A DNA stretch of 64,000 nt from Psococerastis gibbosa (lineage: Eukaryota; Arthropoda; Insecta; Psocodea; Psocidae): assembly GCA_963971405.1 (NCBI GenBank), contig OZ020485.1, positions 41,041,469 to 41,105,468 of the forward strand, in the 5' to 3' direction. The notes under the pieces are model-generated. The model ran no database searches and was not told where the DNA came from. It saw only the letters and a program-made list of their open reading frames with translations. This document shows, piece after piece, positions 16,759-60,900 of this stretch. Position 1 is the first letter of the stretch; each line of letters opens with the position of its first letter. Made by a program: the position numbers and the translations under genes.

Positions 16759-17030
16759 GGCGACAATTCCACCGGCGATTTGACTTCTTTTGTGATTTGA
16801 GATTTTTTGTTTGTTTTGTTTTAAGGAGACTATTATGCAGATACTTAACTTATCTATTATAAATTAAGTTATAATATGGTGGAGACTTATTAATGATATC
16901 TGCTACCATATTATAACTTAATTTATAATAGAAAAGTTAAGTATCTACATAATAGTCTCCTTAAAACAAAACAAACAAAAAATCTCAAATCACAAATAAA
17001 TGAAGTAAAATCGCCGGTGGAATTGCCGCC
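16759..17030. mobile_element. Palindromic Harbinger/Tourist-like MITE H1
   Basis: It is a near-perfect hairpin of 272 bp with ends GGCGACAATTCCACCGG and CCGGTGGAATTGCCGCC and a TTA duplication at 16756-16758 and 17031-17033. The apex carries ATATCTGCTACCATAT. A 3-bp TWA duplication and GG-rich ends are typical of PIF/Harbinger elements. Confidence 0.85.
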
Positions 17031-17317
17031 TTATCGGGCAGAGTTCTTTCTGCCGCGAAATATATATTTCTGATCAATATCTTGTATAAGCTATTTGTAA
17101 GGTAGTCTGGGAGAGTTGTTTAGAGGGATTACGTACAGCGAGTATATACTGTATTTGGTACGATGTAGGGTCATTCTCATTGCTGAAGGACCGATGTTAT
17201 CCACAAGTAGCATATCCTGTGCGTTGTGTTGTGGACGCATATACTTTGTGCGATATGCGTTTTTACCTATAGCTGGACAAGCAATCAAGGCAATACTTGT
17301 CTTATTGACCATTTACA

Positions 17318-17539
17318 TAAATAAATAAATAGATAATGACTTTTTGTTCTATTACTAAGCCAACCTAGCTGAGTTAATGCTATAAAGCCCTCTACTACAC
17401 TCAACTAGGAAGGCCCAAGACCGCCTCCTTTACATGCCCTCCGAAGGATGGCCCGAATATGTAGCAATTGTGGGACTCGAACCAACAATCTTTCGGGTGA
17501 AAGTCAGAGTCCATACTACTACTGCTATACATGTCCTGA
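17318..17539 (-). mobile_element. tRNA-derived SINE, copy D
   Basis: A full-length minus copy. The bases CCATTT flank the head side, and a related ACCATTT lies before the tail, a probable short target duplication. Confidence 0.85.
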
Positions 17540-18392: not shown

Positions 18393-18395
18393 TTA

Positions 18396-18770
18396 GGCGG
18401 CTATTCCACTTGTCGCTTTTACTTCAAATTGGATTTGAGATTTTTTGATTGTTTTGTTTCAAGGAGACTATTATGAAGGTACTTAACCTATCTATTATAA
18501 ATTAAGTTATAATATGGTAGCAGGCGTCAAATGTGATTAAAAAGAGTCTGCTACCATATTATAATTCAATTTATAATATAACTGCAAAGGCTTTCACGGC
18601 CGGAGTCGAATGAGGAACCAGTAGAATCCGGGCTGATGGGCCGTGGTCGAAGTGAAAGTGAACTTCTCATTCAATTTATAATAGATAAGTTAAGTATCTA
18701 CATAATAGTCTCCTTAAAACAAAACAAACAAACAATTTCATATCAAATTTGAAATAGTGGAATAACCGCC
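18396..18770. mobile_element. Palindromic Harbinger/Tourist-like MITE H2, interrupted
   Basis: The ends are GGCGGCTATTCCACT and AGTGGAATAACCGCC, flanked by TTA and TAA. The arms match H1 (ACTATTATG..GATACTTAA-like sequence). The apex is GGTAGCAG..CTGCTACC. The right arm is split by a 91-bp insertion at 18578-18668. Confidence 0.83.
18578..18668. mobile_element. 91-bp insert with 15-bp target duplication
   Basis: It is bounded by ATTCAATTTATAATA at 18563-18577 and again at 18669-18683, a perfect 15-bp duplication. The insert starts TAACTGCAAAGGCTTTCACG, contains GTAGAATCCGGGCTGATGGG, and has a CTTTCAC..GTGAAAG inverted pair. No poly(A) tail and no tRNA boxes were found. A related snippet (AGTAGAATCCCGG) occurs near 3336-3350. 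Class unknown. Confidence 0.7.
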
Positions 18771-18957
18771 TAACGGAGGACTAACATTTTACGTATTGTA
18801 AAGTTTAATGCGTAAAATATGAAAGCTCCAAAAAGTAAAAATTCCCTATAATATTGTGTCCTTTATTACAACATCCATAGACCAATTTTTAAAATAGCTT
18901 ACGTATTAAATTAAATAAAACAATTGCGTGCCTGTATCAGTGTACGTACACGTAAGG

Positions 18958-20904: not shown

Positions 20905-21270
20905 GCAGCCCTATTATGGCGAATCGGGATTGAAATAATACCGGGTTTATTTTTTAATACCGCATTAGTAAGGTGTCGCGCATGTTTATGCGCGGGAAAT
21001 TCAAATAAATAAATAAATGGAATACAAGTGTATTTTTATTGTTTCATAATAGAAGGAAATACTATTAAACATTAAAATGTATAGGTACTGTAGGTAGAAT
21101 TTTAATTAATGTGTCTACATCTAAGAGAGAAAAAATTGAAAACTCACCAAAAATATAGCTGACGATTAATTTATCTATTTGAATTTTCCGCGCATTTTGC
21201 ACTCATTTGTTTAAAACAATTGAATAAACTCCAGTATTATAATAATTCCGAATCGCCATAATAGGGCTGC
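20905..21270. mobile_element. MITE G, copy 1 (366 bp)
   Basis: Terminal inverted repeats of about 27 bp begin GCAGCCCTATTATGGCGAAT and end ATTCGCCATAATAGGGCTGC in inverted relation, with one mismatch class. A partial second copy starts at 49108. Confidence 0.82.
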
Positions 21271-21980: not shown

Positions 21981-24900
21981 AGTAAAGATACAGACAGGTG
22001 AGGCATGGAGGAAGAGCTGCGCTGTCCGGCGTGCTGCCAGCTCTTCAATAACCCCGTTCTGCTGCCCTGCTGCCATGCCCTTTGCCTCCACTGCGCGGTC
22101 CATCTTCAACAGCCTGCGACGCGGGATGCGCCCGACAGAGATGAGTCCTCTGCAGGAAGCGAGCCGAGCTCAGACTTGTACCAAGAAGTCGACAAATTGT
22201 CCATCCTCAGCGAAACTGACAGCGGCGTTGTCTGCACAAGCCGACCCAATAGCTATGTTGGCACCCCTAATATACAAGGCATCGTCTCCGTCACCTGCCC
22301 CGTCTGCCAAAAACTTGTATACTTTGACGAGAATGGCGCGCAAAACTTGCCCAAATACAGAGCGATGGCCGGTATCGTGGACAAAATCACAGAAGCGAAA
22401 CATTTGTCGGTTAAATGTCAGCTCTGTGAAACAGACCCAGCGCCAGCGACCGTTATGTGTGAGCAGTGCGAAGTGCTATACTGTGACTCTTGCCGGGACA
22501 CTTGCCACCCTGCGCGTGGCCCCCTCGCTAAGCACAGCCTGGTGGAACCTGCGGTAGGTAGGGCTTCGCTGAGGGCACGAGGTCGGGCCCTCGACACCAA
22601 TTGCTTAGAACACGACCCCGAACCTCTCACCCTGTACTGCCTCGTGTGCAAACTCGCTGTATGCCCGCTCTGTCTCGACGCACGGCACACAGGACACGAT
22701 GTCCAACCGATCAACGTCATTTCGAAAGCGCAGAAGGTAAGAGTTGTTTGCCAACTTTATTTCCAAATTTCCATGACAAATCTTGGCACGAGTTAATGAT
22801 TAGACGTCCTTTCTTATGATTTGGAATTACGGTCACTTGGAAGCTTCTATATCATCTGAGCTTAGACGCAGCACTTACCTATAGAAAATGAAGTGAAACT
22901 GTGTTTATTGATATTCAGGTATCGCTTTATATGTTCGTAGTTAAATGGTAATTTAAAATATTCCACTGGGCAGAAAAAGAACTGGTCATTTAATGTACAG
23001 GTCGACAGGTCAATTATTTTACTTACCAATATTTGGCCACGTCAACGGCAGCCTGATTGCCCTGCCAGAGGTCGTCGGCGGTCACTGTTGTCGAGCGATT
23101 AAATCCATATTCCACCTATGTTAAATGTAATTATTCGGTACGAAAAAAACCTAATAGAACAGTCATTTTCGTGTAATTGAGCAAACTAAATTTAAAAAAT
23201 TAAAACAAGAATTTGTATTAATATTAATATTTCTGTGATAGTGATACTGATATTGACGTGGTAGCAGACATTAAAGACAGCCTAAAAATGTCTGCTGACA
23301 CGTCAATATCAGCATCACTATCACTATCGAGGTCGGTGGAATATGCGCCTTATCGTAAAATTAGCATTGTTAATAGAAAGTGCTGGTTACTTGAATCGGA
23401 CTTTTTAATATTTTCTATTTTAATAATAATAATAATAATAACAATAATAAACGTTTTATATTTACGGGGCGAGACTTAAGACTTTTTTACTGTCTAACAC
23501 ACGTCCAAAAACAATTCAATTTCCATAATACATATAAGATGGCAGTTCCATTTACTAGCCCTTGATTTAATTGAGAGGGGTTTCAATGATCACCATTCCA
23601 TTCCGGAGGGCAAATCGGCTTTGACAATGTGGTAGCGTGCTTGCACATTTACGACTCTTTACAAGCCATGCGATCGGAGGCGTGTCGTAACTCAACACGG
23701 GTACTAACTGACCCGAGGCAGCCGGCCGCCTTACCAAGTTGAATCCAGCGGACCAGAGCAGGTTCAAAGATGCAGATAACTTGGTAGTGTACACAGTGCC
23801 GGTAGGGAAACATGGTAGGACTTGTCCTGGTCACCTCCGAACTAATCGTGTAACTTCACTGTGTTTCCCACGTGGTTCGGAATCCACTATAATCAGGAGG
23901 TCCCCTGTCCTATGGGCCCACACGGTGGCCTGGGACTGTGTCCAACCATACTACTACTAACCGACAGAGGCAACTGAAGAGGTCAATCGGATGTATTCAT
24001 TGGATTGTTTGTATGCTATTAACTTTTTTTTAAATTCCGTAAATCACATTTAAATGTTTCCATTTCCCGCATTTTCCTATGCACACTCAATTTTAAATAT
24101 ACGCTGACATAAAAGGAAATAGCCTACGCTACAAAAAATATAAATTTAATTACTTTGTAGGTAATATACTGCTATTCGTAAATTGACCTGCCTCTTAATC
24201 GGCTATTTTGTATTGGTTAGCCGCAGGGTAACGGGTAACGCTGTTGCGCATGGCTCCTTTGTATCCAATTTGCCTTGTGTTCATTTCGCCATTATATCCT
24301 CAAAATTTCGTGGGAAATACGCCAGACTAGAATTACAGCAAGGCTTATTTAATATGACGAGGGTCAACATGTTCTTGAATTTACGTTAGGTCCCAGGATT
24401 CTCCACAGAAAAAGGGGAATGGGGATTCAGCTTTGCTTGCGAAAAGTTGCTGACATGGCTTGACAGGGTAATGGAAGTTGGCAGCGATTGTAATTAGTTT
24501 TGTACGTGAAAGTTTGGAGAGGTTTTTCTGATTATATTAGTAATTGGTAAAGTTTAAAATGATATGCAGGATAGAGTGAGTGATGCGCATGCATACTGCT
24601 TTGAAAAGTGAAGCCCTGCCGTATCCGCCTTTTAATGGAAATCAGCCTTAGTTAACTTCAATCCAAAATAAATCCAAATCCTTCAACGAAGAAACTAGGC
24701 TACTATACATATTATTTGTGTAAATAAATGAATGACAAACATAATCTATGTTATTCACAAATGATTGATAAAATTTAAAATGTATCCCTGTAATACGAAA
24801 TAACAATTATTTTTTTATTATTGAAAAACCTAATGTTTTGGTCTGGGGGCTAGTAAAGGATCCTCTTTCTGGATCACTGATATTATAGGGATGTTGTGGT

Positions 24901-27900
24901 GGGCAGCCCCCCCCCCCCCCAGATGAAGGTAAGGCACAACATGTGACTATTATTATTTTACCCGTCATCGCAACTAATTAAACATTTGAAAATAAAAATA
25001 ACAATAATATATTAAATACTATAATTATATTTTGTAATTCAATGTAGAATGGGGGTTTGTATAGGCAACAGCCTAATTGCAATAATATTATAAATGTTAT
25101 GACAAAATTAAATTAAATTTCTCTATCGTCAACCCCCCCCCCCCTTGAAAACCTATCGTTACGCCACTGTGTACACGTTTTCTGTCCAAAAATACTAGTT
25201 ATACTGATACTTCGCTTCTTCAGCTACAATCAACTCTACGTGCAGACTTGGGAGACATCTATTAATGATACACCGCCCCCTCCCCTCAAAAACCTATCGT
25301 TACGCCACTGTATAGCCATTTTCTGTCCAAAAATACTGATACTTCGCTCCTCGGAATCAGCTACAATCAACTCTTTACGTGCAGACATGGGAGACATCCA
25401 TTCCAATACTCAGCTCGGCAAACGTGACTTAAAACCAGCCATTGACAAAACGACCTGGTATTGTGGTGGTAACACGATATATTCCTCTCCTCCATGTATA
25501 CGAAATACGTGTAATGATCACGTGCAGTGAGGCCTCCCTACGTGAGTACGTGCTGACTGCTGACTCTGTAAATGTTGATATTTCTGAAGCCTTTGACATT
25601 CAAATTCGATTTTGAGCTATAGCTGGAAGGGTGTCGTCGTTAGCTGCACTTGCCTGGAAATGAATCAGCCTGCTGGAAAATCTTTTTATCTCCCGTGAAA
25701 ATATACATTATCTTTGAGAATGGTCTGAAGTGCGTCTGGGGAGTATTCACATTAATAACATCCCTATGCTCTTCGTTTTTACTTAGTCGGCGGGAATATT
25801 TCAATATTCACCTTATGGCATTGAATATTCATTTATAAGAAATGCGATTCAATATGCAAAACAAACTAAGGGATATTTTTGTTATTTTGTTATTATTTTT
25901 GCTTTTCTATGTATAAAGAACCGGTCCGAGTTTACTCGAACATGCTTTGCAATTTATCAAAATTAGTAGATAGAGAAAATGAGTACTTTCATGGTAAATA
26001 ATTTTCCTATAGTTAAATTTCTGATATCTCGGGGGGGGGGGGGGGAGGAGGTTGTCCATCTAACGTCACTGGAGGGGAGATAAATTCTTGATAGGTCAGA
26101 CCAACACATTACCACACAGCAATAATGGCAGAGCACGCAATGCATTTGAGCGTGAATTTTCTATCATTTTTTCAAAAAAACATTTCTTGCACAAAACCCA
26201 ATACTCTTTTGGGAAAGTAACCTGTTCCGTTTCGATACACAATTTAACACCTAAAACATGCCTGAAGGTAGAAATCATCGATAGAAAGGTTTCGCAGAAA
26301 AATTATTTTATAGTCATTTTTCATTAAAATTTAGTTATTTTTATTTTTTTACCCCCAGAACCAAACTATCAAGGGGCAAGCGACCCCCGCATTTTATCAA
26401 CATTAATCACGACTACAATATTTGTGAATTTAAGAGAAATCGTTCGAGCCGTTTTTGAGAAATAATTTTTTTATAGGTTTTTTTTGGAAATAAACCCCCC
26501 CCCCCCAAATTGAGTTAGCCCAAAAAATAAAAATTATCCCGAGGTATGATTTTTGTGAACCTACATGCAGAATTTCATCATAATCGACCGAGTAGTTTGC
26601 CCGGAAATCGATGAACAGACAGACAGCCAGACATTTCGTAAAAAACACTTTTTTTGGGTTCCTGGTACCTCAAAACGTGTAATTCCGTTGAAATCTCGGA
26701 ATCGAAAATTTGGACCGTCACAAAGCTTTCCTTATACTACGTATAAATTGGAAAGCAATTATTATATAAAGAAAGCTTATTGATTTCGAAATTCCAACTG
26801 ATTTCTACTAACCAAAAAAATTGTCTTTACGAAATGTCTGTCTGTAGTTGGGAACGAACTACTGGTTAGAATTCGACATTTTCGTTTCAAAAAATGTTGT
26901 CTTGAGATATACCCCTAAACCCACAAAAACTATTAAAAACGTTTTTGTCAAAAACGGCTCCAATTATTTCTTTTAAATTCACGTATATTGTAGCACTTAT
27001 TAATGTAAACAAAAAAAGTTAGGCACCCTCCTTAATTTTTTGGTTCAGGGAGTAAAAAAATAAAAAAGGCTCATTAAATTATTTAAAAAAATAATTTTTC
27101 TGAGGAATCATTCTGTCAATGCTTTCTAACTTCATTACATTTTGTGCCATTATTATTGTGAAGTATTATATTGGTCTGCCCATTTTATACTATACCATTG
27201 TCCCATCGACAATCCCTTTCTTTAGGATAGGGAAAATCTATAGGCAGCCGATATTACAATATTAAACACATACTTTATTTTTATACAATTGTATTAAATA
27301 AAAAGTGCGAACTCATTTATTTCTTTTCAAAATTTAGGTGGTCGTTGTATCTCATGGCTCTTGGCCACTTTGAGTACGGACATACATACATCTACATACA
27401 TCTAGCATAATGAAGCTAAAAATTGAAAACAATTTGCCCGCGTTCTTATTATTTTTTCCAGCCATTTTCAACTATCTTCAATTATTAAAGAAGTAAGCAT
27501 TGCTAAAAAGTAAAAAAACTCGTGGGACTCGAACCAGTCACCTTCTGGATGATAGTCCGAGTCGTTACCTCTACGCCATTCTGACTACGTAAGCATTGCT
27601 GATAACTGATGGTAACAGCAATGAAGTACCTCTAGGTAGTGGTGTTCATGTCCAAGTTTGGTGGAATTATCTCTAATAGTTCCGGAGGAAATAGGGAAAA
27701 GGTCCGCGATATTATTATTTTTTCCATGACTGTATATGACAAACTGTACCATAAATACAATAATAGAGTCATTAGTATAGCACTATATTATTTAACGTTG
27801 AGCTGCTCGAATAGTTCTGTTGTCTGGGAAATTACGGGGTACATCAGTAGTATGGCCTGATTATTATAGAAAAACCACTAATGACTGAAAAGGGACGTCC

Positions 27901-30900
27901 CTATCAACATTTCAATCACGAATGAAAGGCCCATAAAAAATGAACGCTCTATGGAACGAAATGCGTTACAGCTAAAATTATTTCACTCTTTTATGCGGTG
28001 TACAAAGACTTGTTTGTACTGCTGAGAATTGACAGGATGGGATAGGGAATCATTAAGACTACTCCCCCACTAATGTCAGTTTAATGGGCCATCAAGGCGC
28101 GCACCCCGGCAACCAGATAAAAACATACTACCTCTAAATTCGTGAGACCCTTTCCAATTTTAGTTTATTTTTCAATTTCCTCTTTTGCATAAGCGTTGCA
28201 CAGATCTTAATGGCTTCCTAAATTAACCCGCACGACACACCTTATACTACTCAGTACAGATGTAGTGTAAATTAGAATCGACTAAAATGTACAGTGTGTA
28301 CCAAACTTACATGTAAATATACCATTGGGGGATATACTAAGTTGAATCCACCTGAACAGAGCCTGTTCAAAACTGCAGCAAATTATTTGGTGCCCATTCC
28401 ACCGACCGGCTAGGGCTATTTACAAAAACGGTGACGTAGTAGCAGACATCCAAGACTTAGGCGTCGTTTCCACCGACCTCGCATTGCAGAATGCAAATGA
28501 CATTGACGGAAATTAGAATTTTTCTTTTTATAGAAATCTATTAAAATGTTTGTACTTAACATATCCCATGACGCCATTTTTTAATTTTAGTTTGTTTGTT
28601 TGTGATTTTACTGTATGATCATTGATCAATTTTAACTATGGCATAGAGGAAAATAAACATTTCCGTCAATTCTGCAATTGGAAACCCCGCCTAAGTCTTG
28701 AATGTCTGCTACCACGTCACTGTTTTTGTAAATAGCCCTAGCGGCCTAGCCGGTCGGGGGAATGGGCGCCTTTGGTAGTGTGCACAGAGTTGGCATGTGG
28801 GACATGATAAGGCGCTGATACTACCGATCAGCCTGAGTGCGTGTCGAGTCCCGGTCACCTTCGAATTATTCGTGTGACTTTACTATGTTCCCCAAATGGT
28901 TCAGAATCCACTATAATCAGGAGATCCGCCCTAGCTGTCAGTCTACTTCCATTCTCCCTGAGGTGAAAGAGTCGGCCCCTAGGGTGCCTCAAGGTAATAG
29001 ACAGACTCACTCACCTCCGCCAGGCTGACAGGGTTGCTTAAGAGGACATGCTACGTAGAAAATGAGCACCCCAAAATTTGTTGTTTTTATGGACTTTTTA
29101 TTTTTTATTTAATTAACAAAGCAAGTCAATAAATATTTGGCTCATAGAAGTTGTAGAGGACTACTTCGTGCATCATATAATCGGGTATTTTTACTTTTCA
29201 GTTTTTTAGTTCTTCCAAAAATCCCAGAATACACATAATTTTAGTCCGTTCTGGTATTTATGAAAGAACTAAGGTACCAAAAATTTAATGTTTCCGATTA
29301 CATGATGCATGAAGCCGTCTTCTACAACTTCCATGAGCCAAATTTTTAATGACTTGCTTGGTTAATTAAATAAAAAATAAAAAGTCAATAAAAACAACAA
29401 ATTTTGGTGTGCTCATTTTCTACGTAGCATGTCGCCTTAATGCAGATATTTTTAAAGCAAGCGTTGGAATAACAAAGCAAAAACCATTGGTGGATCCCGA
29501 GGCCGTAACCAGAAATTGTTGAGGTAACCTCAATATTTTTAAAACTCCATTCTATATCTAGTATACACTGCAAATATTTCAGGTGTCTACACCCCCTGGA
29601 CCCTTCCTCTGGCTACGGTCTTGGTGGATCCTAAATATGGTCTTGGAGGCATCGAAACAGGTGTCTTTGTCGGGTCGTGTGCGGAATTATTGTTAATTGT
29701 ATTATTTCGCCCTAAGTTCAGCCTGGATATAATACTAAATTAGAAAGAGAGAAGACTTGAAATAATTCTTGCAACTGTATGTATAGCTTACCGATTTGAA
29801 GAAAAATTGTTCATAGCCAAGTACCGCGTTCAAAAGCAGATTTTCGGGAAAAGTATCGGCTTACATGAATGTTCTGATAGTTTACCGGTAAAGCAAAGAG
29901 ATGGTAAAACTGAGAGATTAGGAAATGAATATCGAGTTGGGAAATCCCGATTTATTTGTTTTTACAAATTTGATTCAATCGTAAGATAATGTTCTCCCTT
30001 CTAATGCATCGGGGTATTACTGACTACATTTCTCAACAACTCTTCAACATAATACCTCCCACCCCTACACACTTCTTGTACTTCAAACTTTGATAATGGC
30101 CCGCACAGAGCTCTCCCTAGTACTAGATGCAAGGTTCCATTCCCCCGTTTTGAATGGGCCAATTAAAACAACATCCGGTTTTCAACAGAATAAACAAAAC
30201 CTACCTCCCGTCTGAGTTGATTCCCCTCCTAATTTCCCCCTCATAAATTTTCATCTGTTGGAAACTTCCGTTATTGACTGGTTTTAATTTTCTTAAGCAT
30301 CATCGTAGAGAAATCGGCTATCAACTATAAGGCGCTTATTCCACCGACCGGCTAGGGCTAAATACAAATACGGTGACGTGCTAACAGACATTCAAGACAC
30401 CGACCTCGCATTGCAGAATACAAATGACATTGACGGAAATGTTTGTTTTCCTCTATGCCATAGTTAAAATTGATCAATGATCATACAGTAAAATCACAAA
30501 CAAACAAACTAAAATTAAAAAATGGCGTCATGGGATATGTTAAGTACAAACATTTTAATAGATTTCTACCATAAGAAAAATTCTAATTTCCGTCTATGTC
30601 ATTTGCATTCTGCAATGCGAGGTCGGTGGAAACCCCGCCTAATTGAGGGGAAACTAGATCAGGAGTGTGATTTGGACCGATATTGTGATTAGGCAGGACT
30701 GAGAGAGCTGGATGATGATGTGCAGGGAGTTGCTGCCAACCAATCGTACTTCACTTCTTTGCCTTTTTTATTGTAGTAATTGATCTTTGGAAGTTTAACA
30801 AGCCTTAGATGGACTATTGCCTGTGCTTCGTGAGACTTCACATTTAGCTTTCATCTGCTTAATTCACCATGAAGTACAGTATTTAATTATGAATTATGAA

Positions 30901-33900
30901 AGAAGAAGTAAATAAATAAATATTGGCTTTTTTTGTTCTATAACTAAGTCAACCTAGCGGAGTTAGGGCTATCCCTGTCTTACACTCAACTAAGAAGACT
31001 CGGGACCGCCAGCTGTACATGCCCTCCGAAGCATGGCCAGAAAATGTAGCAAGTGTGGGACTCGAACCAACAACCTTTCGGGTGAAAGTTGGAGTCTGTA
31101 CCACTACTCTACATGTCCTGAAGTCAACCATGGCATGGAATAAGACAAACGTAAATTGGTGGCAATGAACGCCGTTAGCATTGGTTCGTTGACTGAAACT
31201 AATACCGTACGTAAGTAGTACCGTCAACCGCGAAGACAGCTTTAAGTGTCCTTATTGAATTACATGCTGTGTCCATAAACGGGTATGTAGGAATAGCAAC
31301 ATTTTTTTTTTCGGTTTTCAATGGTGGCAAAATTAACACCTCATCGTCAATATTTTTCAGCCGTCCTAATCTAAATTTATTTTTAGTAAGGTACATGTGT
31401 GAAAGCTATTAGGCGCTTATTCCGTCAACATCAATAGTGATAGTAAATGTAGTATTGACGTGGTAGCAGACATTTTTAGACTGTCTTTAATGTCTGCTAC
31501 CACGTCAACACTACATTTACTATCACTATTGACGTTGGTGGAATAGACGCCTTAAGAGTATATGCATGTATACTCGTATATGCTACGTAGAAAATTGGCA
31601 CCCCAAAAATTAAATACATTTCATTATATATTTCATTAACTCAGCAATTTATTAAACATTTGGCACATTTAAGTTGTAGAAGACTACTTCGTGCATAATA
31701 TAAACAGGTATTTTTAATTTTCGGTTTCGTAGTTTTTCCAAAAATTTAATTTCACGCGAAATTTTAGCCCCCAGTGGCATTTATGAAAGAACTAAGGGAC
31801 CAAAAATTTAAATATTTCCTATTATATGATGCATGAAGTAGTCTTCTACGACTTTCATGAGCCAAATATTTAATAAGTTGCTTTGTTAATTAAATAAAAA
31901 CAATTAATTTTGGGGTGCTAATTTTCTACGTAGTATGTCCTCTCAAGAGCTAAGAAAATTCAATACACCAAAGCTATGAAATCATTCAATTGTCAGGCTA
32001 TTTAAAAAACTCCTCATTTTATGTTCCATTCATGGGCTTAGATCAGCAGAAATTGCGATTGGAATTTTTGAATTTTGCCCTAATACTATTGAAGTAAAAT
32101 TGGGAATTGTCACCCCTTGAAAGATTACGAAAGAAGCAAATTTCTTAGTCTGCAGCAGCTTTCAGGTGATTTTTCCAGTTGGGATGAGAAGGGGGACGGT
32201 AATAGAAGACCCAAAGAGGGTTATGACGGCATTAAGGAATGTTCTGCTCTGATAAGGGTTTATGGGAACACAAACCCTCGCCCCTTCCAACTGCTTTACT
32301 TCGCCTCAGCTTCGTCAGTATTTACCTTTACCATAGATTACCGATTACTAAGGGCGTGGATCTTGAGAGAAGGGGGAGGCCGGGGGGGGGGGGGCAAGCA
32401 CCCCCAATGTGTCCTACGTGAAATGTTGGGAATCTTGCTATCGTGCATGCCCAATTTAATATGGAAGAAATCGTTTTGTCACAGAGAAGTCATTTTGGCT
32501 TTGGCTACTCTTCAATTGTCTTTTGTCAATTATTGCAACGAACGTCTGAAAACCACCCTTCCAGTCATTCAGGCTCTTGGCTCCCTCACGTGGTGAAGGG
32601 CGACTTCGACTCCTAAATTTGAAGGACAATTAAAGTTGTCCCTAGCCATTGAATATATAACACTATAGAATGGTCACGACGGTCAAATATTGCAAACAGG
32701 CTTTTCTGGTGAAAAACCTACAAACTAGAAAAAAGGTCGGACGTCCCGCTGGTGTCAGCCCATTGTGCAATTCGTCAGGGTCCAACTCGTCACATCTTTA
32801 CCAGGGACGGTCTAAATACCCTCACTATGCAATACGCTCAATTTCTTCCTGCCCCTTCAATTGGCTGCCTACTTTAATAATGGTCAGTGGTATATACTGT
32901 ATATATTTTATTGCTTTCCAATTTATACGTAGTAAAAGGAAAGCTTTGTGATGGTCGAAATTTTCGATTCCGAGATTTCAACGGATTTACACGTTTTCAG
33001 GTCCCAGCAGGAACCCAAAAAAGTGGTTTTTACGAAATGTCTGTCTGTCTGTCTGTCTGTCTGCCTGTGCATCGATGCAACTAAGCGGTCGATTTTGATG
33101 AAATTTAGCATGTAGGTTTACAAAAGTCATACCTCGGGTTGTTTTTTTTTATTTTGGGCCAATTCAATTTGCGGTGGTTTTATTCACAAAAAACGTCTAA
33201 AAAAATTATTTCTCAAAAACGGCTGCAACAAGTTCTTTTAAATTCTCATATATTGTAGTTGTTGTTAATGCTGACAAATTGCGGGGGGTCGCTTACCCCT
33301 TGATAGTTTGCTTCTGGGGGTAAAAAAATAAAAATAACTAAATTTTAATGAGAAATGACTAAAAAATAATTTTTCTGCGAAACCTTTCTATCGATGATTT
33401 CTACCTTCAGGCATGTTTTAGCTGTTAAATTGAGTAACTAAACCGGATAGGTTGCTCTCCCAAAAAAATGTTTAATTTTGCAAAAAAAAATATTTTTTGA
33501 AAAAATGATAGAAAATTCGCGCTCAAATGCCTTGCGTGTCCTGCCATTATTGCTGTGTGGTAATTAATGTGTTGGTCTGACCTATCTAGAATTTATCTCA
33601 CTTCCAGTGACGTCAGGTGGACAACCCCCCCCCCCCCCCCGAGATATCGGAAATTTTACAACTGGAAAATCATTTACCATGAAATTACTCATATTCCCTA
33701 TCTACAAATGTTGATAAATTGGAAAGCATGTTCGAGTAAACTCGGACCGGTTCTTTTATTTGACCTAGCATTGTACTTCTGCTTTCCAACAATAGCTTAT
33801 TTTAGAATTGCAGATGATTTAATTAGACTTAATGGATCTACTCTAAAATACTAAATCTACCTATTATTATTTTGAAGCCGTATATGAGAGCTTCTTCAAA

Positions 33901-45900: not shown

Positions 45901-48900
45901 GCTGGCAAGTTCTTTTACAGTTTCCGAATTGCGACAGCCAAACGCTGCCGCCAAATACATCAGCATCAGCTTAGAGGATGCTTCATTCGACCGTACTTTA
46001 AAGTGCCTCTTTTTGTGGGGTATGTCGTCAGCCATGTATTGCAGTTAATGAGGAAAGGCCGCAAGGGCAGGGGGGTTAGAGCTTCAAATTGGACGTTTGG
46101 GGTGGAAGATGCTGAAGTCGTTAGGAAGGCAGTGAACCCCGTCGTATTCACGGCCATTTGGGGAATTCCATCACAAATCTCACCGTTATTACATCCCTGT
46201 GGTCCTTTCGTACGGAGGGGTCATTTCTAGCTTTCAAAGCAGACTGGACTGTGCTGCGCCTGTTTGCTCGAATTATTCTGTGGGCAATTGTAGACATTTT
46301 CCAACGCCTTGCTTTTTTAACTTAACCCTACTGTTTGTCAGCCTACGAAAAGCAATCGATTTTCTCAGCAGCACACAACAGGTCTAGTACCAACGGGAAA
46401 GAATAACTAATCCGAGAATAAGTAAAAATCAGTCTAAATATAAATCCCAATATGCTTGCATAAGTCTCCTTTATATACACGCCTGCCTTGTAAGAAACAG
46501 CCAATGGCCATACCAAGTTGTATCCACAAGAACAGAGCCTGTTCCAAACTGCGGCAAACTTGGTAGTGTGTACAGCGTTGGCAGGGGCACATGGTGGGAC
46601 ATGATAACGCGTTGTTACTATACCAGCCAGTCTACGTGCGTGTCGCGTCCTGGATACCTCCGAATTAATCGTGTGACTTCACTATGTTCCCCAAGTGGTT
46701 CGGAATCCACTATAATCAGGAGGTCCACACTGTCAGTCAACTCCCCTTCTCCCCGAGGTGAAGGAGTCTGCTTTTAGGGTGCTTCAAGTTAATAAACAGA
46801 CTCACGCCCCCCGCCAGGCTGACAGGGTTGCTTAAAAGCAGAAATGCTCAAAGCAGGCGTTGGAAAACAAAAACAAAAATTTTGAAACTAACGAATTATG
46901 AAACTGGTGGTAATAATTCCCCTGCTAAGTTATTCTTTACAGTTTTTCGTTGTTGCATAATTTCTGCTAAATCAGGATGGTATTTAAAAAGTAAATACCA
47001 GTATACCTATATATACCTAGTCGGTTACAAAGTTCTGTCCCCCACATTTCAAACTGAAAATTTAAAAATTAAATCTGACTTATTTCCCCCGGAAATTCGT
47101 GTGTGCAATGCGTCAGACCAATGCAATTTAAGAATACTGAGGTGAGGAAAATTGTAATTTGAACATGAGAGAACGCGGGAAGTCAAACAGTTTGAAGGCC
47201 TCATTATTGAACTATCGTGCCACAAAGCCTCTTTCCCCAAGCCCTTAATCTACATTAACTAGTCATAATCCTCTCATCACATTTATGCACAAGCCTCTTC
47301 TTCCCTTTCTCATTTCCAAATATGGCTACATTACTTGCACTCCCTTATCTTAGACTAGTTCTTCATTTTGAGGTTGAATAGGCTAATGCCGTATTATCAG
47401 TATAATAATATTTCATTTAAATATTAAAATAAATAAATAAATAAATATTGACTTTTTTTGTTCTATTACTAAGCCAACCTAGCGGAGTTAGGGCTATAAA
47501 GCCCTCTCTTACACTCAACTAGCAAGGCCCGGGACCGCCTGCTTTACATGGCCTCCGAAGCATGGCCAGAATATGTAGTAAGTGTAGGACTCGAACCAAC
47601 AACCTTTCGGGGGAAAGTCAGAGTCCGTACCACCACTCTACATGTCCTGACATTACGTATATATATATATATTATTAGAACATTTAGCTGGATTCACATA
47701 GACAAAACTTATAGTAAAAACTAAAAAAAACTAGATCATAGTAAAGGTTATCACAACATTACGTATATACTTGTACATAAAATTTTTAAGATTTTCATTT
47801 TATTGGACCTTTAGACTTGTTTGCAAATAAATGTTATTCATTAATTTATGTTGATCCATTAATTAAAGATAACTAAACACTTTTCTTCCATCACTTGCAT
47901 AAATATGTATTTATAAAATTGAAGAAACTCAGTGTTATGTTACTATTAATTCCTGGTCGCACTGTACAGTATATTTTCGATTCACTAAGGCGGGGTTTCC
48001 ACGTACGTCAATGGTCAATGAGAAATATGGTTTTGGCGTGGTAGCAGACATTTTTAGTATGTCTTTATTGTCTGCTAAAACGCCAATTTCATATTTCTCA
48101 TTGACCATTGACGTATGTGGAAACCCCACCTAACGCATTCAAAACAATGGAACAAGTTTCAAAGACTTATAGCAAAAAAAGTACACACGTTCAATAGTAG
48201 GCAGACGTTTTGTGTTAATCCTTTTTAAAAGTCCGTCCCCCAAATTTACATTTCTCGCTTTTCCATTATAATTTTTTTCTCGCGCCATTCCGCAACCACT
48301 GGACTGTGACCTTTACCAGACCGATCCGCTCAAAATGAGTTTAACGGATATTAAAAACGGAAGGGGCCTCGAGGGTTGTCGAAAATCAATACGAAGAACG
48401 GCGTACCCCCAGTTATATGGGGTCACGGTCCCCCGGGGCGCCAAAACACATAAACAGGCTGCTTTGTTTCTCCCGTGATGGGAACTGCCATTTTCCGAAA
48501 GAGAATTCCCCAGTGGCATAGGCGTGTTTGCTGGAGGGGGATAAATTGGGAGCGGGATTGCAACACTATTCCCTATTCGTTTAGAATCTGCTACGGGGCT
48601 GTTATCATTGTGGTTTTGTAATTTCAAGTGATAGAGGCAGGTGCTTTGTGAGAGAGGCTTGAGCTGGATGGGAGGAAAATCTTCAATTAATCTAAGCCTT
48701 TGAGGGGAAACTCAAACCCGAAATCTTGTGATATTGTTACTGGTGCGTTGATTAAGCAAGTTAAGAAAATGAGGTTCTGAGTACATATTATGACAAAATT
48801 TTGTTCTCTGGTAGGCATTTAATAGATCTACAATGCTTTGTAAAAAGAGATCTAACTAGAAAATTTTATTGTTGAAGTGGATTATACTTCGAGAAAAAGA

Positions 48901-51900
48901 AAACTTTCAAATTATTTTTTAATCGATAAACGATGCCCTTTATACTTTTGTATAAATACAAATTTTTAATAATATTAAATTAGATATTAGTTTAACTTGA
49001 AAGTTTCCTCTATTTTCATTTACAATCGTCTAAGCCAATAAACCGGAACACATTTTCCAAAAGTCGTTAGAACTCTATTAGGTGAGTCTAGTTGCTGGCC
49101 CATCAGCAGCCCCATTATGGCAATTCGGGATTACCCTAACACTGGGGTTTATTTTTTAATACCGCATTAGTAAGGTGCCACGTGATGGTAGTCAATACCC
49201 CCAGGTGTCTGCTAATGATTCAATTGTTTTAAACAAAAGAGTGCAGAATGTGCGGGAAATTCAAATTAATAAATTATTGGAATACAAGAGAATGGTTGCG
49301 TTTTTTTATAATTGAAGGAAATAATAATAAACATTCAAATGTACAGGTAGAACTTTGGAATATATTAAGAAGGGTTGAAATTGGTTGGTCGTTATTGGAT
49401 GAAATAAATAGTAAGGATGTAAGCCAAATTTCCTAAAATAGAGATAACGCAAAAAACGTTTATGTACTTCTTCTATTGGGGCAGAATAAATGGACCTTTC
49501 CAAATTAAATGGCCTCTGAGGGTTAAGGGCTGCCTTTTGACGATGCGTTGGTGCGCGTATAAAATTATTGTGCAATACTATACCTACTGTTGTTATAACT
49601 TAGGTGTAGGGTGAATCGTAACCCCATCAGACTCAGTTGAGTGGTTTAGTATTAAAATGAAATACTGGCATAGCCCTGAGCAAAAGGGAAGGAAGCTTAA
49701 GGTAAAAAAGAATATAATCTCATTTGTTTACTCCCTTTACTTTCTCTGAAAGAAAGGAAATTTATGGAAGGAAAATAAATGTAGAATTTTTTTCTGACAC
49801 CCAAGTTGAGTAATTTACTTCCTTATAATTTATGAACATTGATTTCTCATGTAAGTAATGCCTTCCCAAATTGTATTTATCTAACAATTCCTTTTTCCAG
49901 TTCTCTATATATTTATTGCTTTCCAATTTATATGTAGTATAAGGAAAGCTTTGTGATGGTCCAAATTTTCGATTCCGAGATTTCAACGGATTTACACGTT
50001 TTCAGGTCCCAGGAACCCAAAAAAGCGGTTTTTACGAAATGTCTGTCTGTCGCTCTGTCTGTCGCTCTGTCGCTCGTGCGTCGATTTCCGGGCAAATTGT
50101 TCGGTCGATTTTGATGAAATTTGGCATGTAGGTTCACAAAAATCATACCTCGGAACCATTTTTTTTGTTTGGGGCTAACTCAATTTGGGTGGTTTTATTC
50201 TCAAAAACTCCAAAAAAACGTCTAAAAAAATTATTTCCCAAAAACGGCTCCAACGATTTCTTTTAAATTCACATATATTGTAGTTGTTATTAATGTTGAT
50301 AAAATGCGGGGGGTCGCTTGCCCCTTGATAGATTGCTTCTGGGGGTAAAAAAATAAAAATAACTAAATTTTAATGAAAAATGACTGAAAAATAATTTTTC
50401 TACGAAACCTTTATATCGATTATTTCTAATTTCAGGTATGTTTTAGGTGTTAAATTGAGTAACGAAACCGGACAGGTTGCTTTCCCGAAAAGTATTTTGT
50501 TTTGTACAAAAAAACGTTTTATTTTTGAAAAAATGTTAGAAAATTCACGCTCAAATGCATTGCGTGCCCTGCCAGTATTGCTGTGTGGTAATGTGTTGGT
50601 CTGACCTATCTAGAATTTACCTCACCTCCAGTGACGTCAGGTGGACAACCCCCCCCCCCCCCCCCGAGATATCGGAAATTTAACCATAGGAAAATTATTT
50701 ACCATGAAATTACTCATTTTCTCTATCTACTAATTTTGATAAATTGGAAAGCATGTTCGAGTAAACTCGGACCGGTTCTTTATCTCAGGGGAGGCCGGCC
50801 GCCATACTAAGTTGAATCCAGCGGACCAGAGCAGGTTCAAAGATGCAGATTACTTGGTAGTGTGCACAGTGCCGGTAGGGAAACATGTTAGGACTTGTCC
50901 TGGTCACCTCCGAACTAATCGTGTGACTTCACTGTGTTTCCCAAGTGGTTCGGAATCCACTATAATCAGGAGGTCCCCTGTCCTATGGGCCCACACCGTG
51001 GCCTGGGACTGTGTCCAACCATACTACTACTATCTCAGGGGAGTTTTTCACTATTATCTTATTACTCGACAGTAATGTTAATTACTAAAAAAGGGGTTGA
51101 AGTTAATACAGTATTATAAGAATGATTTTCTGTCCCTCTCTAGCAGGCCTCATTCGTTCGTTCTTTTTTAGCATGGCCGCGTTGACTCGGGTTACAACAC
51201 ACGAGGCAACATCTGTCAGCTCTTACTCGTCCCTTCCTTCCTCTCGCTATTGAATATGGTGCTCCGGTAATTCTGTGTAGATTGTTTAAGAAAGTGTCGT
51301 CTCGCTCGTCTCACAGACATCAAATCTCATTTAACAAAGGGTTAGTTGGACTTACAGTGCCTGCTGTGTTAATAGTCATTAGAGGCATGGGCCTCATAGT
51401 CATCAAACAAATGAGGGTGGAGCCCATTGTCAGAGGAAGGGGGTGACGTGAAGTTCAAGTAGAAGTTTTAAACTAGAATACTCTGGTGAGGGCTGTGGTT
51501 GAGTCGTAAGAGACGTTGCATTTCAATCGGGTGAACAGTAGTTCAAATTCTCAATGGGATCGGATTTATTCATTAATTCAGAGTAGAATACAAGAGCAAT
51601 GAGTCAATCGTCCAGAAAACATTAGTCCTTATCAGGACTTACGATCAACTAAATGAGGCCCCTGTGTCTAATGACTATTAACACGGCGGACAATGTAAGT
51701 CCAACTAACCCTTTGTTAAATAGTATTGCACCATTGCCATTAACCTTTAGTAATATATCATGTCTCATGTCGCAAAGAGCGACTCGTCTCGTCACGTCAC
51801 TTGCATGTATAATCTCGGGGACAACCTTACTAAGCACCAAAGCAAATTTATAAGAAGGCCATGTCATGAGCGAATTCAACTGTAACGAGTATTTAAATGC

Positions 51901-54900: not shown

Positions 54901-57900
54901 CTCGTATGTTGACGTAGCTTTCGTGTTTATAGCTGCTTTAATTTGCCGCTGTAAAATGTGATCCACATCAATCAATAATGCTAAGTCCTCGGCGGTACTT
55001 AGTCATTAGGGGGTTAACGTTATAATATTTAGAATATATTAATTCTCAGCCACAAGCCTTAAGAGAAAAATTAAGTAGAAAATTGGCATCCCAAAATTAA
55101 ATACTTTTCATTTTTTATTTAATTAACTCAGCAAGTAATTAAAAATTTGGCTCATCTAAGTTGTATAGAAGACTACTTTGTGCATCATATAATCGGGTAT
55201 TTTTATTTTTCGGTTTTGTAGTTCCAGAAATCCCAGAATACGCGAAATTGTAGTCCATTCTGGTATTTATGAAAGAACTAAGGTACCAAAAATTTAATTT
55301 TTTCTATTAAATGATGCATGAAGTAGTCTTCTGCGACTTCCATCAGCCAAATCTTTAATGACTAGCTTTGTTAATTAAATAAAAAAATAAAAAGTCAATA
55401 AAAACAACAAATTTAATGCAATACGCATAAACATGCCCTAAAATAGGAGAATAGTTAAAACTTGTTTCCTAGAGCATTCGAAGTATTTACGTGTAGAAAC
55501 TTATTACCAGTACCATAATACAGGAAGAAAAAACTTACGCTAGTGATTCACAATACGAGTATATGCTGATATCAGACTACAATAATTCTCAGCCACAAGC
55601 CTTACGTGCCCAAAAATAGGAAAATCGTTAAAAATTGGTTTCCTGAAGCATTCGATATTCGAAGTTTTTCCGTGTAGAGACTTATATTAATATTATACTT
55701 ATTATTACCAGCGCAATAATACAGGAAGAAAGGACTTTAGCTGGTGATTCACAATACGAGTATATGCTCATCTATGATTTTATTTATAATTCTTGAAATG
55801 AAGAAAGGGGTGGCTTGGAAACAACATTAATCTTTGAGAGGTTTAGCTGGAAGCATGAATGTGGCGAGATATGCTAGGATGTCAAAGTGTTCCGTGACTA
55901 TGTGGCAGCTTTGACAAACATAGACGTGTCACGCACTCCGATGCTTCACTACTGCTTAAAATTTTATCACACTGACTCGCAAGCTGTATTTTCATGCTTA
56001 CTAGTAAATGCATAAAAAAACAATACACTATTACATTTCTCAGTGTTACCAACAGTAAATGTGATAGACAAATTGCTTGTTGATTAATGGGGTTCTGTTC
56101 TGTAAGGTTTTGCCTGGAATTTTTTAATGTCAATTCTGCCCGTAGACGTTTGTCAGCACCCCTACATCGTCTTTAAACTTGACCCTTTTTGTTTATTAGT
56201 GGAGAGGGGAGTCAACCGTCTTGTTCCTCATCTTGGAAGTAATTGTATGTAAAGTATCTATGGTTTTAGGTTGCTCGATAGAACCTACCTTATGTTGTTT
56301 CTGACGCCTGCTTTCAGCATTTCTACTTTAAGAGGATATGTCACGTAGAAAATTGGCACCCCAAAATTAAATACTTTTCACATTTTATTTCATTAACTCA
56401 GCAAGTTATTAAAAATTTGGCTCATGTAAGTTGTAGAAGACTACTTCGTGCATCATATAATCAGGTATTTTTACTTTTCGGTTTTGTAGTTCTTCCAAAA
56501 ATCCCAGAATACGCGAAATTTTAGTCCTGTCTGTTCTGGTATTTATGGAAAAACTAAGGTACCAAAAATTTAATATTTTCTATTGTATGATGCATGAAGT
56601 AGTCTTCTACAACTTCTATCAGCCAAATATTTAATGACTTGCTGAGTTAATTAAATAAAAAAATAAAAAGTCAATAAAAACAACAAATTTTGGGGTGCTC
56701 ATTTTCTACGTAGCCTGACGGGGGGAGTGAGTCTGTTTGTTGACTTGAGGCACCCTAAGGGCAGACTCTTTCACGTTGGCACCTCACCTTTTGGCACATT
56801 GGAGCATACATAGAAGTACTTAGACATTGCGAATCTGACTCATACTAGCTAATTCATTTCGTTGGTAAAACTGAGTTCTACTAAAAAAAATAGTTTTTTG
56901 TCATGTTTGGCTTGTCCAAGTTTTATTTTTTAGCTTGGCTTGAAGCTTAGTTTGGAAATAGCTTGGCTAAAAGTAGTTTCAAAATAAAACTCCAAAACAA
57001 AGCTTTTGCTTGGGCTTGGGTCCATGAAGAAATTTAGACTAAGTATTGTACATTACGACCATGAGTTGAAACAAATCGAAATTTTTCTTTGATTTCATTC
57101 ACGTGTATACTGCGCATGTGCATGTATTGGAATAAACACAGTGTGTCGTTTCTATTGTTTCCTGGTTAGACAGTGTGCGATGTTCTCAAACTGGCTTAAA
57201 ATAATAAAATTTAAAAATGTGGCAGCATCAATCTCGTTGGACATTGAGGGCGGGGCGGGGCGCGTTAACAAAGCTTTCACCTTGGCTCCGAGCCGAGACG
57301 AAAAACTCTCGCTTCAAAACATCAATACTTGTACAAAGTTTTTAAAATTTTCTATGACGGACGACATTGCAGTTGTACTTTAATGGTGCAGCTATTTGTT
57401 GTAATGCATTATATATCGGTATATTATAACATTATTGTGGAATATACGAATTTACTACCCGACCACTATAAGATGGCATTTGGAAAACTCTGTTTATTCG
57501 GAAATTTGCATAAGCGGAACACCGAGTTTATTCGATTTTTATAAGAGTTCCAAGTGCCAACCTATCGTGGTCAGGTAGTAGGTACGTATAATACGTAAAA
57601 TTAGCTAAAACACCTTGCGTAAGTTCTTCCTATTTCTAGTATCTTAAATATCTTAAATTGGAATACTGAAGGATTGCTGGTTTCTAAACATTCTTCCAAC
57701 ATTCGATCCAATACAAGAAAAAATCGAAAGTGTAATACCAGTATTGGGTTGAATAAATATTCGAGTGTGTAATCAGTGCCATTGGAACAATATTCGAGTG
57801 TGTATGGGGGGGGGGGGGGGGAATCAGCCTATAATTATATTAATTTGATATGGTAGGTACACAGTATACCGTATACTTTACCAAGGGGAAAACCATGTTA

Positions 57901-60900
57901 TGTAACTTCAATTGTTCTGCTACAATATAATTCTAATTTTAACTTTAATTAAAAGCTCCTTACAGCACTGATGTTACACTAGTAAAATACCTATTTTTAA
58001 CGCTTTTATAATGACGTTAATGCCTGAGAAATATTGTAAATACATGACTTCCCAATAAGCTGGGTACTACCGTTGGGTTAGTTTTACCCTCCATTTATCT
58101 ATTCAATAGTCCCAAAGCAAGTAAACTCTCAACTCTAATAAATCAATGTTAAGTTCTGCTTCCGTGAGCTGTGACAAATGCCAATGAAACACGAATTCAG
58201 CCAATTTCATTACATTCAATATTTAGTTCACTTTAATTGTCTTGGAGGAAGTTTTGGTTCAATTTATTTAATTTATTTATTTAATAAAATTCTTAAATTA
58301 CTATATACTGTATATCTATGGGAACACTATTACCACGTGACTGGATCCAGCGCTGCCTACAGTTGCTGATTATACTGTCTTTATATATTAAGTAAAACCC
58401 GAAAAAACCTATTATGTGGGATGATAACCGAAAATGTCCGAAAGCTGTCTTTAACAGCCTTCACCCATAGCCAATTAACGCTTCCACTTAATATTTTTTT
58501 TGTCAAAATGCGATCGGAATCTGTATTCCGATCATCGGAGTTCTGATAGTTGAAGTTCTAGCATACTGAATATATTTGTTACATTCAGTAGGCTAGCATG
58601 TATGTACTTGTACTGTATGAATAGCACTGTACGCATTATAGTACGGCAATAGTGTAATATAGTTTTTACATGCATTCATACATACATATATGCAGTTACC
58701 GCGCCACTACTGTATCGTTTCTTATACAGTTGTACAATGGAAAATAAAAGAAACATGTAAGAATTGTAACTTAGTACTACAGTATATACTGTATATTGTT
58801 GTATCTAAATTTAATTCAGTCAAAAAAAGTTGTGAAACATTTGCTAAATATATTTTAGGCCAATGTTTAAAAAAAAAAAATTGCTTGGAACTTTCTGTTT
58901 TCCGCTCATATGAAATTTGAAGAGGTTGCCGTACACCGCGTCCTCAGGGCGTCTCCATGGCAACAGGCATCTCAGTCCTTGTTTCATTTTAACTTCCCCT
59001 ATTCTGTGTAAGTCATTTGTGCCGCGGTTTTTCTAGAGTTAGGATGATGATTTTCTAACGGGCCTCTCTCACCTTTTGCCTCCTTTCCCTACCCCCGTTA
59101 CTCCCCAGGGTATTATGATTTTTTCACCTCCCCTAGCTCAATCATCTTTTTACTGATAGTATTTACAACTAGCATAGTGAAGGGGGTTATGCTCCTATGA
59201 GTCCTTTCCAAACACATACCAGTAAGGCATTTTTATTACAGTTGTATGCATGGATAAGGTTGTAAATATTCTAAAACTGTAAGCAACACGTACTGGGTAT
59301 GCTAGGCATTAAGAAATAGGGACCTCCAATGACTAAGGCGGCTCTCACACTGCAAAAAGCAACGGGCAATAGGCAATACACACCTGCACAGTGAGAGTTG
59401 TTTCAATGTGAGAGAGCGTCAAAATAATATTGCGTATTTGTATTGCCTCAGCGTGAGAGCCGCTTAAGTCACCATAAGTGAGGAGCTTGGTTACAAACGT
59501 GGCCAACTCCATTTTTTCACACAATTGGGTTTTGATCCGACCTTGCAGAAAATTTTAATGTCCACCTGCACGTTGTAAAATAAAGTGATAAAAGCAGCCA
59601 GATTGCGCACAGCAGCGCTGAGAAGTTTGGGGTTAGCTATAAACGTAATGCAATTTTCAACAGAAAATCCGCTCTCCTGAAAAATTCTAAACTTGGAGTT
59701 GGCCATGTTTGTAAACAGCCTACTCAATTATATCGCCATGAAATGGTTACACTTTCATTACGTCGTTAACCCTATTTTACGTCATTTCAGCAGTCCGTTT
59801 TATTAGCTTTTGAAACTGATAGGCCAGAGGGAAGTAGAAGCTTGTGGGTTGCGTTGCCAATTTACAACTATACAAGCATACAAATGCGATCTAGTGTGAA
59901 GCGATTTCGCATGAAAAGTATTAGTTGGATGAAACCTGGGTGCTGTTTTTCTTCTGTCAGGGAGACAAAGAAACCGTAGCTTGTGAATAGTAAATAGGTT
60001 TCAATCTCTCTCTTCTATTTTCCTTCTTATTTTTCTCTGCTTTTGAAACCAACACGAACAGCTGTCTTATCTCCTTAGTATGAGAGTGTTGCTCCGATGA
60101 ATTTTTACACTGTAGATACTGGTGAGGAATTCGCAGCTTAATCTTGACTTTTGTTAGCGCAACAGTTACGTTGTTTGCTTCTGGATTGACGATTTTAATA
60201 TTAAATTGACTTAGATTGAACCTCATCAGGACATTATATCCGAACATAGGGAATTTAGAAAAATCTGTGAGAGAAGTAATTGGCGTCACTAAGCGCCAAC
60301 CACGTTATACGAACACTCAAATTTTCCTCGTGAGGAACTACATCCACTGCACTTCAAAGCTCGTTCACGAGATTAGCTGTCTCATGTCGATTCGATAGAT
60401 GCTCTTATGTACATTGTACATGCGTGTTTGTATAGTACTTACATCATTTTGTTTAAAATTTAGTACAATAAAACAAGATAAAGCGGAATTTTTCATTTCC
60501 TATTTTCATCTGAGTTTGCCCTTTGTTTAGCCTCTGCTGTGTTATCTGACACCCTCAGCAAATGTTGGAATTAGTTTTTGTCGAGAGAATTCGAAAGTTT
60601 TAAAACTCTTTGTCCTCAAATTTGAAGCTTTTTAGAAGTTCCCCATACTGATTGTGTCGCATCTGTCTGGTAATTGTAATAGTTTTCTCTGACTTCGTAT
60701 GTATTTAATTTGTATTATTTCTCAACTTTATAAGATCTTGTTCTTTTATTTCAGACGGAGCTATCCCTTAACCTTCAGCAGTTGTCTGAAAAAGCTCGCT
60801 CGACTACTGAATTTATACAAAGACTCAAAACTATGGCTGATCAAGTGACCGTAAGTATATCAATTTTTAATTTCCTCAACAGATATCATCTATTCTACTG

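Follow-up and report, generated by a model that had tools for sequence, protein, structure and literature searches.

The 64,000-nucleotide (nt) stretch of Psococerastis gibbosa DNA analysed here (contig OZ020485.1, positions 41,041,469 to 41,105,468; hereafter the window) carries a set of hairpin-forming miniature inverted-repeat transposable elements (MITEs) with GGCG tips. These elements, named below by their first positions in the window, have tips and an apex in common, and differences between related elements frequently appear on both arms at once. BLAST grouping sorts them into three families, S (31412, 47989 and 23236), C (28389, 30331 and 37637) and B (16759, 18396, 42032 and 33922), with 59337 as an outlier. 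A previous examination of the letters (the sequence-only reading) had counted at least four unrelated sets of arms. That count is reduced to the three families plus the outlier, and the B arms do truly differ in sequence as well as in length. The elements are the following, with TSD standing for target site duplication.

31412 to 31551, no strand assigned: S hairpin MITE of 140 bp, TSD TTA/TTA, 40-nt apex at 31462-31501.
47989 to 48130, no strand assigned: S hairpin MITE of 142 bp with a GGCGGGG tip and TSD TAA/TAA; its 40-nt apex covers 48040-48079, one half of it carrying two mismatches.
23236 to 23349, no strand assigned: oppositely oriented S hairpin MITE, missing the left tip and the outer part of the left arm; the 40-nt apex covers 23260-23299 and one of its halves has two mismatches.
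28389 to 28770, forward strand: C composite, an outer hairpin with a MITE termed I in its loop; flanks TTT/TTT, both flanks of I of one type (..CAAGACTTA towards I).
28460 to 28691, forward strand: MITE I nested in 28389, flanks TTA/TAA, mirror images with no direct duplication.
37637 to 38023, forward strand: C composite with nested I, TSD TTA/TTA, both flanks of I of the other type (..CATTAATAAA towards I).
37708 to 37952, forward strand: MITE I nested in 37637, flanks AAA/TTT, mirror images.
30331 to 30639, reverse strand: C composite with a single arm, ending in an outer tip on one side and an I tip on the other, with the second I tip deleted; TSD TAA/TAA.
16759 to 17030, no strand assigned: B hairpin MITE of 272 bp, TSD TTA/TTA, loop shorter than 40 nt with the uninterrupted sequence AGAC-TTA-TTAATGATATC.
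18396 to 18770, no strand assigned: B hairpin MITE, flanks TTA/TAA, about 90 bp extra in one arm, 40-nt apex at 18516-18555.
42032 to 42252, no strand assigned: B hairpin MITE, TSD TAA/TAA, inner right arm lost.
33922 to 33965, forward strand: B left-end fragment, recognized by tip match and BLAST grouping and absent from the earlier list of elements.
59337 to 59464, no strand assigned: outlier MITE with a GGCGGCTC tip, TAA/TAA if the end is placed at 59464, TTGACG confined to the right end, at nt 43.

The GGCG-type tip that the elements were said to have in common is well borne out. With up to two mismatches, the tip GGCGSNNATTCCACC occurs at 21 sites in the window, six of them exact, compared with a mean of 1.14 and a maximum of 5 in 100 shuffles. 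Twenty of the 21 sites are ends of GGCG elements or of the element nested inside them, the exception being the site at 28811. The proposed 3-bp TWA duplications are exact in seven of the ten elements originally named (16759, 30331, 31412, 37637, 42032, 47989 and 59337), where 59337 is counted only if its end is set at 59464 and not 59463. They are not universal, because 28389 is flanked by TTT/TTT, 18396 by TTA/TAA, which do not form a direct repeat, and the left end of 23236 is missing. Tips of PIF elements begin with GG. Like the PIF terminal inverted repeats (TIRs), which are about 15 bp long (PMC9710019), those found here are short (about 15 nt) and start with GG, and the TWA duplication of these seven elements is the one expected of PIF/Harbinger (Tourist-like) elements. 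The 3-bp flanks differ from the 7-8 bp target duplication of Galileo and the P superfamily. Assigned from TSD and tip only, the elements are probably non-autonomous hairpin MITEs moved by a common, PIF/Harbinger-like transposase.

The common apical motif withstands comparison with chance. When at most one mismatch is allowed, GGTAGCAGACAT occurs at nine sites in the window, all of them within GGCG elements. Relaxing the limit to two mismatches raises the count to 15, of which 13 fall within elements; the expected number is 3.3, and no shuffle exceeded 10. Exact half-sites define a 40-nt apex of the form GGTAGCAG-N24-CTGCTACC in 31412 and 18396; the same span in 47989 and 23236 is drawn from ungapped alignment to 31412. 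The loop attributed jointly to 31412 and 47989 is real. The loop of 23236, described earlier as flipped, does lie in the other orientation, as does the whole element: its identity to 31412 is 0.807 when flipped and 0.702 when not, and an inversion of the loop alone was rejected on these grounds.

All three C elements hold a second GGCG-tipped MITE, I, which the sequence-only reading missed. The inverted repeats of I measure about 54 bp and its core is not palindromic; most of the element is present in 30331. In the composites, I is bordered on each side by 22 nt, counted from the outer apex end, and these flanks are mirror images of one another without direct duplication (TTA/TAA in 28389, AAA/TTT in 37637). 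Plain nested insertion was rejected for both elements because their inner junctions lack a direct duplication. The TAA/TAA flanking 30331 suggests that an outer tip and an I tip can serve jointly as the ends of one mobile unit.

Divergence is distributed unevenly along the composites. Between 28389 and 37637, the core of I is identical at 118 of 129 positions (91%) and its ends at 49/54 and 37/40, compared with 16/28 in the outer arms on each side; in the 10-11 nt next to I, agreement falls to 3/10 and 3/11. With columns taken as independent and gaps omitted, Fisher tests give p 3e-8 for arm plus flank versus core, and p 4e-5 for arm alone versus core. The arm of 30331 is intermediate, agreeing with 28389 at 24 of 28 positions and with 37637 at 20 of 28. 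When 37637 is used as the outgroup for 61 arm columns, 28389 is derived on both arms at five, on the left only at two and on the right only at two; none of the 129 core columns is derived in 28389, compared with 5 of 61 arm columns derived on both arms (Fisher p 0.003). The five two-arm changes need not have been copied from arm to arm if the ancestor had a single arm.

The flanks of I can be joined into an apex of the kind seen in the other elements. Once one TTA and an extra T are removed, the 28389 flank followed by the right flank of 37637 has a length of 40 nt, which is the apex span of 31412, 47989, 23236 and 18396. The loop of 16759 matches this join at 25 of 25 nt across the junction, a score reached by none of 1000 shuffles of the middle, and the loop of 42032 matches it at 11 of 11 nt (4/1000 shuffles). 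The S apices agree with the join at 30-32 of 40 positions in one orientation and 24-27 in the other. Each of the four flanks was joined to each of the four with 0 to 4 nt dropped, and no 28389-28389, 37637-37637 or reverse join matches at least 11 nt across the junction; only the 28389-then-37637 order does. A run of 22 bases at 16887-16908, in the apex of the B element 16759, is identical to 37685-37706 and 37954-37975, the two apex halves of the C element 37637, on arms that are unrelated and of different length. As the simplest history we infer one insertion of I, followed by arm copying in opposite directions.

Two independent insertions of I, into the loops of hairpins that already differed, would need no arm replacement within the composites and would account at once for the different divergence of core and arms. 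It is also true that I has tips of its own, one of which serves as the element end in 30331. However, direct TWA duplications are missing around both inner copies (TTA/TAA and AAA/TTT), so that copying of the flanks would still be required. In addition, I sits 22 nt from the apex ends in the same orientation in both composites, and the two flank types join to a sequence that is found uninterrupted in 16759 and partly in 42032. Finally, 30331 and 28389 most simply derive from one insertion (core 134/137, right flank 6/6), and yet they differ at 4 of 28 arm positions compared with 3 of 137 core positions (p 0.016). We therefore consider two insertions unlikely.

Comparison of arms within and between elements shows that the two arms have tended to change together. 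Including the I flanks, the arms of one element are identical at 64/69 positions in 28389 and 68/71 in 37637, and at 45-47 of 69-71 between the two. We scored a column as concerted if it differs between two elements and agrees between both arms of each. For 28389 and 37637 there are 20 concerted and 7 one-arm columns among 71 with the I flanks, and 13 and 6 among 61 without them, where no column is arm-specific. The S pairs give 11 concerted versus 9 one-arm columns among 63 (31412-47989), 5 versus 3 (31412-23236) and 8 versus 6 (47989-23236). In 2000 runs of a simulation with independent arms and the same total change as each pair, the largest concerted counts were 4, 4, 2 and 3 for 28389-37637 (with flanks), 31412-47989, 31412-23236 and 47989-23236, respectively. 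The earlier proposal of arm replacement between fixed ends is therefore upheld in that both arms are replaced or homogenized together, with concerted counts above those simulated, and set aside in that the S and C arms do not have the look of arbitrary replacements, as discussed below. In 42032, the outer 57 bp of the arms are 96% complementary, and one segment departs from the 16759 sequence in both arms.

A second palindrome family in the same window was used as a control. Its members are near-complete palindromes of about 290-400 bp with other tips, apparently forming two subfamilies, and are located at 13354-13731, 29038-29440, 31580-31936, 41669-42023, 55103-55395 and 56343-56711; the B element 42032 starts 8 bp past one of them. 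In the close group of this family (29038, 31580, 55103 and 56343), concerted columns number 0-5 in the six pairs, one-arm columns 16-30 and arm-specific columns 10-18. Left arms resemble left arms and right arms resemble right arms, which is as expected without recent homogenization.

The same close group has the appearance of palindromes that are born repeatedly, whereby single-armed progenitors drift, the palindrome is remade by one inverted duplication of an end, and the arms are independent from then on. Repeated birth would generate concerted differences between families with no continuing homogenization. Moreover, 30331 has a single arm, and mirror-image flanks of I would likewise arise if an ancestor with one arm had been duplicated twice. 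The S family argues otherwise, since about half of its differing columns are concerted (11/24, 5/9 and 8/16) despite a common asymmetric 40-nt loop, and because its members have this loop in common their palindromes look older than their divergence. Repeated birth thus strikes us as distinctly improbable.

Constant spacing makes the S and C arms look unlike arbitrary replacements. From the 15-nt tip to the xTGACGT that opens the apex, the spacer measures 27-29 nt in nine of the ten S and C arms; the tenth, the right arm of 28389, has a spacer of 35 nt with an 8-nt insertion. Relatedness of the spacer sequences between S and C is weakly supported (nine pairs, z 0.3 to 2.5), and the case for homology consequently rests on position and length. 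Because the spacer length is constant and the C arms align through the intermediate 30331, we do not favour S and C arms as unrelated replacements.

An xTGACG-like motif is present at nt 43-45 in 13 of the 15 S, C and I arms, with five exact TTGACG, four GTGACG, two TTGGCG and two TAGACG. The frequency of an exact TTGACG at nt 43-45 of a random start is 0.0009. Four of the five I ends carry TTGACG or TAGACG at nt 44 and the fifth has a deletion, while the I arms are otherwise different. Among the B arms, the motif lies at nt 47 in 33922 and at nt 55 in the left arm of 42032, whereas 16759 and 18396 lack it on both arms and 42032 on the right arm. By analogy with the 9-bp subterminal motif bound by the Myb-like protein of zebrafish Harbinger3_DR, as given in the consulted part of PMC9710019, the xTGACG-like motif is plausibly a putative subterminal protein site.

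Binding of this kind would also suit ordinary MITE diversity, in which one transposase acts on common tips, the arms have separate origins, and selection maintains the apical motif as a further protein site. Four silkworm MITE families with 8-bp TSDs similarly combine similar TIRs with dissimilar interiors, according to the consulted part of PMC2997013. As far as tips and apex are concerned, such diversity is compatible with homogenized arms. It leaves the mirror-image flanks of I, the concerted changes and the match to the joined apex unexplained, and we judge it highly improbable.

Overall, we find it reasonably probable that the elements are hairpin MITEs with a fixed tip and apex and homogenized arms, and that the C lineage received a single insertion of I, followed by arm copying in opposite directions. 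The fixed points would be the 15-nt tip, the xTGACG-like motif about 44 nt in (for S, C and I) and the 40-nt apex, and the spacer between tip and motif would be constant in length but variable in sequence. Within one element, the two arms would repeatedly be made alike, with one arm being copied from the other by inverted-repeat template switching, snap-back repair after excision or gene conversion within the hairpin. Copying of arm from arm would cause changes to appear on both arms at once and lineages to drift between the fixed points. In the C lineage, a single insertion of I would have taken place at a TTA halfway along an asymmetric 40-nt apex. One apex half and its arm would then have been copied over the other in the lineage of 28389 and 30331, and in the opposite direction in the lineage of 37637, after which 30331 may have moved by means of one outer tip and one I tip.

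It is also conceivable, albeit doubtful, that the 40-nt apex itself drives change, its short inverted repeat GGTAGCAG..CTGCTACC, which families with unrelated arms have in common, providing a switch point or a primer for snap-back. A hairpin that is broken or being replicated might then, again with little likelihood, copy a new arm and tip from its own other side or from another family. This idea fits because the apices of 16759 and 37637 have 22 nt identical on unrelated arms. If the apex does drive change, the elements would be modular hairpins that exchange arms around it.

Several observations weigh against the history of homogenized arms and a single insertion of I. All element data come from one 64-kb window and the copies are few (three S, three C and four B). 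The 40-nt span is not universal, as the loops of 16759 and 42032 are shorter, and 18396 has 40 nt with a centre unlike the join (its scores are equalled in 90 and 221 of 1000 shuffles). The match of 16759 to the join includes only 4 nt (AGAC) to the left of the TTA, on the 28389 side, and that of 42032 only 5 nt (AAGAC), for which base frequencies give chances of 0.003 and 0.001, respectively. The join drops 4 nt of the right flank, chosen among 0-4, of which three are the duplication and one is an extra T that is unexplained; dropping 1 nt yields a 43-nt join with a slightly longer match (12 nt) to 42032. The one-insertion history is thus weakest in its extra T, its brief match on the left side and its reliance on few copies. 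The concerted signal is weak in family B, with concerted counts of 4, 8 and 6 versus one-arm counts of 19, 19 and 20 and simulated maxima of 3, 6 and 4. Likeness between 31412 and 23236 (0.807) is close to that within each of them (0.814 and 0.773). Because concerted columns between the control subfamilies reach 21 (with 39 one-arm columns), concerted change also occurs outside the GGCG elements. Lastly, the xTGACG motif and its variants were defined after S had been seen and serve as description only.

Further features accompany the elements. A segment of about 90 bp at 18579-18672 has 52% GC, compared with 37.5% for the window, and is found only in one half of 18396, unmirrored in the other arm. 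The palindrome of 37637 runs about 14 bp past the element on both sides (37624-38037 by self-comparison). An origin of the B arms from the core of I was rejected, the best local scores in six comparisons being reached by 12-157 of 500 shuffles; I and 33922 have only the short stretch CATTGACGGAAA in common. A repeat of about 220 bp, possibly a candidate short interspersed nuclear element, has at least eight copies on both strands (10474-10693 and related sequences at 11437, 16201, 17320, 30909, 43401, 45438 and 47416). A longer repeat of about 800-880 bp, with copies 71-88% alike, is located at 9168-10044, 14071-14854, 25913-26773, 32908-33756, 35668-36519 and 49910-50781, and further fragments of it at 34085-35671 adjoin the B fragment 33922.

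The window looks eukaryotic and contains a single open reading frame (ORF) of at least 200 amino acids with a start codon. There are 40 stop-to-stop ORFs of at least 95 amino acids, and 11 of these were scanned against Pfam. The only matches among these 11 are a B-box at 22005-22796 and a lipase at 4217-4504, and no transposase was found among them. The ORF at 22005-22796 also has a RING match under the Pfam cut-off and may be TRIM-like.

Searches beyond the window for the same patterns did not yield related elements. The apex pattern has one match in viral_contigs and one in genome_contigs of the public collections, neither being an element, and the tip pattern has 112 matching stretches in viral_contigs with no element among them. 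When 11 window elements were compared by BLAST with all 114 loci (E at most 0.01), the only matches were 18-31 nt long, and no hairpin is present around the matches in loci L001 and L114. In a string search of the literature for tip and apex, the 12-mer apex came up in four papers, whose titles are unrelated. Among papers covered by title and the start of the abstract, a limited set, there is no account of these tips or of oppositely directed arm copying with a nested element as its marker, which is weak evidence of absence.

The closest known parallel is Galileo, a member of the P superfamily with Foldback-like TIRs, in Drosophila willistoni. According to the portion of PMC4168063 consulted, its long TIRs restructure, insertions in one TIR became part of both, and template switching is named among the causes of defective copies. 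Unlike the present elements, which are hairpins of 140-390 bp at TWA sites, Galileo has a 7-bp TSD and its own transposase (PMC4168063, same portion), and it is in the present case that two copying directions would follow from one nested insertion. Both the mirror-image flanks of I and the concerted arm changes fit Foldback-like transfer from TIR to TIR, and it is from these that we infer the copying itself. Since such transfer is already known from Galileo, arm recopying here would be an unusually clear case of a partly known process.

Other systems resemble the elements in part. As described in the sections of PMC2872659 that were available, the CMITE elements of corals likewise conserve a region across families that otherwise differ, with piggyBac-like ends, variable TIRs and a conserved interior, whereas here the tips and apex are conserved and the arms vary. 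Tourist-like and PIF/Harbinger MITEs of Lepidoptera have the same TWA duplications (PMC2997013 and PMC9033116, in part), and in silkworm the TIRs start with GGG in two of the three TWA families given. However, those TIRs differ from the tips described here, and the three families share neither TIR nor interior (PMC2997013, in part). The terms palindrom* and hairpin do not occur in the available texts of PMC2997013 or PMC9033116. Template switching at inverted repeats, in which one arm serves as template for the other, homogenizes arms and can invert spacers (available parts of PMC8604942 and PMC8794818). In contrast to the present case, it is known there from RNA genes and yeast coding DNA, and transpos* is absent from the available text of PMC8604942.

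How hairpin MITEs stay palindromic while they diverge seems, from the portions of the literature available, to be little documented. The nested I offers a marker for inferring the direction of arm copying in two descendants, and its non-palindromic core an internal clock. If the pattern holds true genome-wide, the rates and tract lengths of arm-to-arm copying would become measurable in an animal genome, and the arm sequence of a MITE would be a poor guide to its ancestry.

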